In this document: positions 45,901 through 47,176 of the stretch, in pieces
Position numbering within the stretch: the stretch's first letter is position 1
How the letters are laid out: each line of letters opens with the position of its first letter
From: Salegentibacter echinorum
GTDB taxonomy: Bacteria; Bacteroidota; Bacteroidia; Flavobacteriales; Flavobacteriaceae
DNA length: 64,000 nt
Assembly: GCF_900129445.1 (NCBI RefSeq)
Contig: NZ_FQVT01000010.1
Span: forward strand, 1 to 64,000
Reading direction: 5' to 3'
Program-made: the position numbers and the translations under genes
The notes under the pieces: model-generated
The model's database searches: none
Told to the model about the DNA's origin: nothing
What the model saw: the letters and a program-made list of their open reading frames with translations, nothing else

Positions 45901-46791
45901 TTAATCTTTATTGTTCCTGGGATGTGCCATTTTATGTACTTCGCTAAGTTCTGCAATACTATTGTGCGTGTATATTTGAGTTGCCGCCAGACTGGAATGT
46001 CCCAACAACTCTTTAACCGCATTTAAATTAGCGCCCTGGTTCAACAAGTGTGTAGCAAAAGAATGACGCAAAATATGCGGGCTTTTTTTCGTTTTGCCAG
46101 ACACCTTACTAAAATAATTATTTATAACTCTATAAACAAGGCTTTCGTATAATTTAACTCCTTTCTTTGTAATAAATAAATATGGATTTTCTTTTCCTTC
46201 TAAAATCTCTCGGCGTTGTTTTAAATATTCTTCTATATCAACTTTAATTCCGGGAAGCAGTGGAATTATTCGCTCTTTCTGGCGCTTACCCAATACTTTA
46301 ATGTAACCATCATTTAAGCTCAAGTTTTGCAATTGAATGTTTATAAGTTCAATGCGCCTTAAACCGGTTGCATAAAACAAGCTTACGATTAGTTTATCCC
46401 GGGCACCCTCAAAGCCTGAAGTATCAAAATCTTTTAGAACCTGCTCAATTTCATCTTTAGAAAAAGGCACCTGTAATGTGTTGCTGGTTTTTAAGGCTTT
46501 GTGTTTTGCAAGCGGCGAAATACTAATATCTCCTGTTTTTTGCAAGAATTTATAATAAGCTTTTAAGGAAGCAATTTTTCGGTTTATAGATTTATTGGAG
46601 AGCCCCTCTTCTACCAACGCCACGATCCAGTTTCTTATCTGTGGATAAACGACCTGTTTTAAATCTTTTTCATGAAATTCCTCGTCAATAAATTCAGCAA
46701 AAAATGTAAGATCGGCTTTATAGGCAGTTACGGTATGGGGAGAACAATTTTTCTCCAGGTGTAAGTAATCGAGAAATTGAAAAAAGGGCAT
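45901..46791 (-). CDS. xerC: Tyrosine recombinase XerC-like
   Basis: A 296-residue site-specific recombinase with the N-terminal SAM-like DNA-binding domain starting MPFFQFLDYLHLEKNCSPHT and the catalytic set R (ATGLRRIEL near residue 147), K (VLGKRQKER near 173), HILRHSFATHLL near 238 and LGHSSLAATQIYTH with the tyrosine near 271. It resolves chromosome dimers. The open frame extends seven codons upstream, but ATG at 46791 fits the family start. It sits between rpsU and hpf in core genome, so it is unlikely to be a mobile-element integrase. Confidence 0.88.
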   Translation of the reverse strand: MPFFQFLDYLHLEKNCSPHTVTAYKADLTFFAEFIDEEFHEKDLKQVVYPQIRNWIVALVEEGLSNKSINRKIASLKAYYKFLQKTGDISISPLAKHKALKTSNTLQVPFSKDEIEQVLKDFDTSGFEGARDKLIVSLFYATGLRRIELINIQLQNLSLNDGYIKVLGKRQKERIIPLLPGIKVDIEEYLKQRREILEGKENPYLFITKKGVKLYESLVYRVINNYFSKVSGKTKKSPHILRHSFATHLLNQGANLNAVKELLGHSSLAATQIYTHNSIAELSEVHKMAHPRNNKD

Positions 46792-46809
46792 AAAAAAACT
46801 GTTGATAAA

Positions 46810-46836
46810 CAAAGTTACTAAACTTTAATCTATCAA
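46810..46836 (-). promoter_or_regulatory. Promoter of xerC
   Basis: Minus-strand TTG-N16-TAACTTTG, ending 18 bases before the ATG at 46791. The spacer is one base shorter than usual. Confidence 0.5.
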
Positions 46837-46891
46837 CAGTCCTATATGATTTTGAGAAATATAATTTCAAAAAACCAGAATTTTTAATTTA

Positions 46892-47086
46892 CTAGATATC
46901 TTCCTGATCCCTCAAATGCTGAATATATTCTGCTTTTTGATTTTGTGCCCTTTTGGCTACAGAAGGTTTAGTAAAATGCTGACGGCTTCTTAGCTGTCGC
47001 ATAGTTCCGGTTTTATCAAACTTTCGTTTAAAACGCTTTAGCGCTCTATCTATATTTTCTCCGTCTTTTACTGGTATTATTAACAT
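46892..47086 (-). CDS. rpsU: 30S ribosomal protein bS21
   Basis: A 64-residue bS21 with the start MLIIPVKDGENIDRALKRFK and the basic RQLRSRQHFTKPSV centre, in the Bacteroidota form with a longer C-terminus. In Flavobacterium johnsoniae bS21, together with bS6 and bS18, covers the anti-Shine-Dalgarno end of 16S rRNA, and ribosomes that lack bS21 translate rpsU through its strong Shine-Dalgarno site. The same site is present here, so autoregulation is likely conserved. Confidence 0.95.
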   Translation of the reverse strand: MLIIPVKDGENIDRALKRFKRKFDKTGTMRQLRSRQHFTKPSVAKRAQNQKAEYIQHLRDQEDI

Positions 47087-47092
47087 AGTGTC

Positions 47093-47106
47093 ATCACCCC
47101 CTTTCT
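47093..47106 (-). promoter_or_regulatory. Strong Shine-Dalgarno site of rpsU
   Basis: On the minus strand AGAAAGGGGGTGAT lies six bases before the ATG. It matches the perfect complement of the 16S rRNA 3' end (AGAAAGGAGGTGAT) except for one A to G change that still pairs with U. No other gene in the window has a comparable site, in line with the scarcity of such sites in this phylum. Confidence 0.9.
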
Positions 47107-47120
47107 TTAGAAATAGTGCG

Positions 47121-47128
47121 CAAAGATA
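47121..47128 (-). promoter_or_regulatory. -7 box of the rpsU promoter
   Basis: Minus-strand TATCTTTG matches TAnnTTTG and would give a leader of about 30 bases that just contains the Shine-Dalgarno site. Confidence 0.6.
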
Positions 47129-47176
47129 ATTTAAATCTAAGAACCTACAACTTATATTTTAATTAATTATTCTACC

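Follow-up and report, generated by a model that had tools for sequence, protein, structure and literature searches.

Analysis of a 64,000-nucleotide stretch of the Salegentibacter echinorum genome (contig NZ_FQVT01000010.1, positions 1 to 64,000 of the forward strand; hereafter the window) revealed that rpsU, which encodes bS21, carries an extended Shine-Dalgarno (SD) site that is conserved in the genus, is the strongest anti-SD match of the window and fits the 16S 3' tail of the genus, while the encoded bS21 has Tyr54 and the transcription unit looks monocistronic. By analogy with Flavobacterium johnsoniae, rpsU of this genome is very probably autoregulated; the mechanism itself was demonstrated in that species, and that the loop also operates in Salegentibacter is what we infer from the likeness. 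The features of the locus are listed below.

46792 to 46839, minus strand: hairpin followed by seven T, probable terminator 3' of rpsU (fold)
46892 to 47086, minus strand: rpsU, 64-aa bS21 with Tyr54 (ORF translation; Pfam PF01165, 73.9 bits)
47087 to 47092, minus strand: spacer GACACT 5' of the start codon (leader sequence)
47093 to 47094, minus strand: AT, counted as part of the helix by the first-pass annotation; the A opposes an A of the genus tail
47095 to 47106, minus strand: AGAAAGGGGGTG, 12-nt contiguous pairing with the genus 16S 3' tail (duplex computation)
47121 to 47128, minus strand: TATCTTTG, probable -7 promoter element (leader sequence; TAT.TTTG unchanged in all 15 genus genomes)
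47148 to 47150, minus strand: TTG, probable -33 element, 19 nt 5' of the -7 element (TTGT invariant in 15 of 15)

The profile search assigned the frame 46892-47083 (63 aa) to Ribosomal_S21 with the Pfam score given above, and a genome search returned the rpsU copy as the sole bS21 match of the window genome. Residues 1-61 of the protein matched PDB chain 7jil_z (E 3.6e-27), and Tyr54 was in register with that chain over the 61-residue alignment; entry 7jil is from F. johnsoniae. Upstream of the gene, TATCTTTG and TTG presumably represent the Bacteroidota -7/-33 promoter consensus, which they resemble. Downstream, the fold of 46785-46850 on the minus strand had an energy of -23.6 kcal/mol (z -6.58), and the hairpin with its T run makes rpsU look monocistronic, although a consensus terminator scanner, which requires three or more G-C pairs and a loop length between 3 and 8, called no terminator at 46792 to 46839. 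Within 46789-46839, the hairpin and T run abut the probable ATG (46789-46791) of the next gene, an integrase-family recombinase; by Pfam names, the window genes 3' of rpsU are of the recombinase and hpf types. This unit fits rpsU of F. johnsoniae, since the latter has a transcript of its own with a 25-nt leader (PMC9976891).

The leader of rpsU reads ...TCTAAAGAAAGGGGGTGATGACACT-ATG on the minus strand. The first-pass annotation had placed AGAAAGGGGGTGAT six bases before the ATG, and the distance from the end of AGAAAGGGGGTGAT to the ATG was indeed 6 nt. It had further held that every position of the site can pair with the 16S 3' end, and here only part of the claim stood: 12 consecutive bases paired, while the next base formed an A.A mismatch, because the claim presumes a GGAUCACC tail and the 16S genes of the genus have GGAACACCTCCTTTCTA. 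Since no 16S gene was detectable in the assembly of the window's own genome, its tail was taken from the genus, where eight genes were matched, six were read, and two other genomes yielded none. All six genes read, from three Salegentibacter genomes, ended in GGAACACCUCCUUUCU (the tail end also given as TGCGGCTGGAACACCTCCTTTCTA, with CACCTCCTTTCT as its anti-SD part). Compared with the E. coli-type tail, we take this tail to differ by one base, outside the core. A fourteen-base pairing was thus ruled out by GGAACACC in the genus tail; the correction leaves the interpretation of the site unharmed.

Against the genus tail, the 12 consecutive pairs comprised 11 Watson-Crick pairs and one G.U, at -19.7 kcal/mol, and the run ended 8 nt before the ATG. 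The site thus lies within the published criterion (9-13 bp, below -13 kcal/mol), a cut-off that applies only roughly here, as our energies are those of ViennaRNA duplexes and not of free_scan. The G.U pair sits at the central U of CCUCC and costs about 0.9 kcal/mol relative to GGAGG in duplex energies. Folding gave no support to a leader structure hiding the SD of rpsU (z +0.45).

The rank of the site was determined within the window, across the genome and against chance. That the window is otherwise SD-poor, as the same annotation had stated, follows from the finding that only three ORFs reached -8 kcal/mol in the SD region as against two in a mock region further upstream. These figures refer to 46 ORFs of the window, each 100 aa or longer, read from their first ATG and without rpsU (64 aa), for which the median was -2.0 kcal/mol in the SD region and -2.9 in the mock region, with a strongest value of -13.9. 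In a more liberal scan of 58 ORFs, which admitted every possible start codon up to the midpoint of an open frame, rpsU was the strongest anti-SD match (-19.7), followed by a GTG inside a long ORF at -15.0. Genome-wide, AAGGRGGTGA occurred at 5 sites compared to 12 for the reversed control, and when only ATG starts were considered, the rpsU site was the one site of the five followed, at a distance of 4-12 nt, by the ATG of an ORF of more than 14 aa. The looser pattern AAGGRGGN{4,12}ATG occurred at 79 sites compared to 109 for its reversed control. Thirty-two of the 79 were read, rpsU among them. Among the window genes rpsU is an SD outlier; the genome-wide comparison is one by pattern search.

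The clearest other SD-like start among the 32 sites read was AAAGGAGGTACAGG-ATG in front of a 261-aa ORF (L212, contig C16 near 92397), with 9 open codons upstream of its ATG; L233 and L208, with 43 and 139 open codons upstream, may be further SD gene starts. The sequence AAGGAGGATAATTATG recurred nine times among the 79 matches, and L209, L229 and the variant L237 (around position 1500) have a longer stretch in common. L209 and L229 also have TGTCCGGT-like inverted ends, which suggests an insertion-sequence or MITE-like repeat.

The site could be an ordinary strong SD that merely drives high, unregulated output of bS21. In line with this explanation, rpsU mRNA is bound stably in vitro even by complete 70S ribosomes of F. 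johnsoniae (PMC9976891); the other window genes, however, show no SD use, and mutation or depletion of bS21 increases the output from the F. johnsoniae site 3-4 fold (PMC9976891), which makes unregulated output unlikely. Chance or shared ancestry, leaving a site without present function, is a very improbable explanation: the leaders of the genus are closely related, but contiguous pairing of at least 12 bases (G.U allowed, any register) occurred in only 2 of 200,000 simulated 30-nt leaders drawn from a first-order chain built on the window's own upstream regions, and covariation of the site with altered anti-SDs has been published (PMC9976891).

Both bS21 and the extended SD site were present in all 15 Salegentibacter genomes (one of them only 61% complete). 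The SD core was GGGGG in seven and GGAGG in eight genomes, and we see no case for a special meaning of the central GGGGG, which also occurred in 9 of 190 SD loci and has only the small energetic effect given above. The letters of the GACACT spacer were invariant (15/15); in four genomes the spacer was 3 nt shorter with the SD shifted along, and two of these four pair, by reading, over 11 bases instead of 12. Since core and spacer differ among genomes yet the site stays, the pairing has been kept while the sequence varies.

The leader also contains an AUG at -8 (GGTGATGACACTATG; 47092-47094, minus strand), which opens an out-of-frame 4-codon ORF (ATG ACA CTA TGT TAA) that overlaps the rpsU start, with its UAA falling just inside rpsU. 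This AUG could act as a decoy that fine-tunes the switch by capturing SD-blind ribosomes, leaving the true AUG to those that pair with the SD. The presence of the upstream AUG in 11 of the 15 genus genomes, although it is not needed for pairing with the genus tail, would agree with such a role. The AUG is, however, absent from the other four, and just 40 of 190 SD-bearing loci have it (the loci come from named and unnamed sets with some overlap), a share that is, roughly estimated, near the expectation for an A+T-rich spacer. Both points argue against the decoy, which we regard as quite unlikely.

Autoregulation of rpsU through bS21, as the first-pass annotation had proposed, is supported by the presence of the features of the published mechanism: the extended SD, the C-terminal Tyr54 of bS21, the SD-poor surroundings and the intact CCUCC core in the 16S of the genus. 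In F. johnsoniae, mutation or depletion of bS21 raises the output of rpsU and of other strong-SD reporters and leaves most SD-less ones as they are (McNutt et al., 2023; PMC9976891). According to the same article, purified ribosomes without bS21 start faster on rpsU, although in one of the assays a temperature of 37 °C masked the effect, and such ribosomes favor rpsU through a site of this kind. In the proposed mechanism, bS21 would form part of a pocket in which complete ribosomes hide the 3' tail of their 16S rRNA, and complete ribosomes would therefore ignore SD sequences. Under bS21 shortage, 30S subunits lacking the protein would expose the tail, the tail and the rpsU leader would form a 12-bp helix, and more bS21 would be made until the pocket is refilled. 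The loop reading of the window rpsU is supported by homology and is not new, since PMC9976891 demonstrated the loop in F. johnsoniae and expects it in about 80% of Flavobacteriales, the share that satisfies its two criteria.

Compared with its closest systems, the Salegentibacter locus is like the F. johnsoniae loop in that rpsU has an extended SD while its neighbors are SD-poor, bS21 has Tyr54, and the gene looks lone with a short leader; it differs in the central G.U found in 7 of 15 genomes, with 12 bp in the window, and in being known from its sequence. In Chryseobacterium and relatives, an alternative anti-SD covaries with the rpsU leader (Jha et al., 2021, as described in PMC9976891); there too the leader is matched to the 16S tail of its host, whereas the CCUCC core of Salegentibacter is canonical. 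Francisella tularensis has bS21 paralogues (PMC9578407; also described in PMC9976891), and resembles members of the Flavobacteriaceae in having more than one bS21 gene and possible ribosome heterogeneity. The Flavobacteriaceae pairs, unlike those of F. tularensis, differ by the presence or absence of the extended SD, and the window genome is single-copy. The list of organisms with extra bS21 genes in McNutt et al. names no Bacteroidota (PMC9976891).

In a family-wide search of 199 Flavobacteriaceae genomes, nearly all of them the only one drawn from their genus, 192 had bS21 and 76 had two or three matches; outside the family, two matches were counted by eye in 3 of 166 genomes from an order-wide draw of 196. 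Of the 76, 70 were re-searched, and two of these (G041 and G054), whose second match fell below the family cut-off, were excluded, leaving 68 genomes with 142 copies (examples are L110/L111, L103/L104 and L125-L127); for single-copy genomes of the family, the loci read were the best-scoring ones returned by the search. At a cut-off of -14 kcal/mol, exactly one copy had an extended SD in 68 of 68 multi-copy genomes (-21.6 to -17.2 kcal/mol), although these genomes share ancestry and are not 68 independent events. That the site is kept on a single copy in each genome, while the paralogous leaders are without it, was counted in favor of the autoregulatory loop and against chance or ancestry as the sole cause. 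The other 74 copies ranged from -12.0 to +1.9 kcal/mol, with a moderate SD match in three (-12.0, -10.2 and -9.8), and the first 67 of them had a median of -1.4 compared to -1.5 kcal/mol in the mock region. Residue 54 was Tyr in all 68 SD copies and in 67 of the 74 SD-free copies, the remainder having His (5) or Phe (2). The leaders of 67 SD-free copies were A-rich at -11 to -7 (55-81%, compared to 30-63% for the 46 window genes), a composition that appears to suit SD-less initiation.

Phylogenetic analysis of 180 rows placed all SD rows in one clade (100/98), along with 17 SD-less rows that represent other Flavobacteriales families, and the main SD-free group of 41 rows separately (99/74), with further divergent SD-free copies outside; the 64 columns leave many forks unresolved, and the tree has long branches and a midpoint root. 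Genomic context also differed between the two kinds of gene. Genes of the recombinase and hpf clusters lay 3' of the SD copy (60 and 56 matches over 63 loci), as in the window. For the SD-free copies, counted over genes of at least 80 aa and with seven later-read genomes outside the count, the nearest upstream gene was a same-strand member of a sigma-70 cluster in 30 of 67 (23 of these 31-43 nt away), a member of an AsmA-like cluster in 13 (named by eye; no Pfam match) and of a cold-shock-like cluster in four (named by eye), and a DUF2797-cluster gene lay downstream on the opposite strand in 42. The sigma-70 and DUF2797 clusters were named from one representative each by Pfam. All 14 genomes chosen for a sigma-70/bS21 pair had two sigma-70 matches, but at least two were also found in 11 of 16 single-bS21 genomes, and the sigma factor is therefore not tied to the paralogue as a strict partner.

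Genes for bS21 also occurred on viral contigs, in 61 loci (including L349-L352 and L367-L422) of which 60 had a readable start; 56 matches were obtained with the paralogue as query compared to 5 with the window protein, and 5 of 50,697 records of a named phage collection matched, all below 60% identity. An extended SD was present in none of the 60 (27 distinct), none lying below -10 kcal/mol; for L348, which resembles hosts with an altered anti-SD, the tail used is the wrong yardstick. In a tree of 95 rows, 19 of 23 viral proteins formed a group of their own (89/88, with an open fork), apart from host copies and paralogues, and a phage origin of the paralogues, being unsupported, is therefore not claimed.

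The paralogue split is the part of this analysis that deserves a second look, and its function is put forward with some reserve; a search of titles and abstract openings returned no published report of SD-bearing and SD-free bS21 copies in Flavobacteriaceae. It is possible, if somewhat less likely than not, that in many members of the family two bS21 genes obey translation rules that are the reverse of each other. The SD copy would answer bS21 shortage; the SD-free copy, often placed right after a second sigma-70 gene, would be made by complete, SD-blind ribosomes and, since Tyr54 is mostly kept, would shut off the SD copy, so that co-expression of sigma factor and bS21 would change the choice of promoter and the make-up of the ribosome together. 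This extension concerns the relatives, as the window genome is single-copy. The window site extends a thoroughly studied example of ribosome specialisation in bacteria by one genus and, if both kinds of bS21 gene are used, the relatives would provide a natural control experiment for the switch, in which the supply of bS21 would be decoupled from the feedback.
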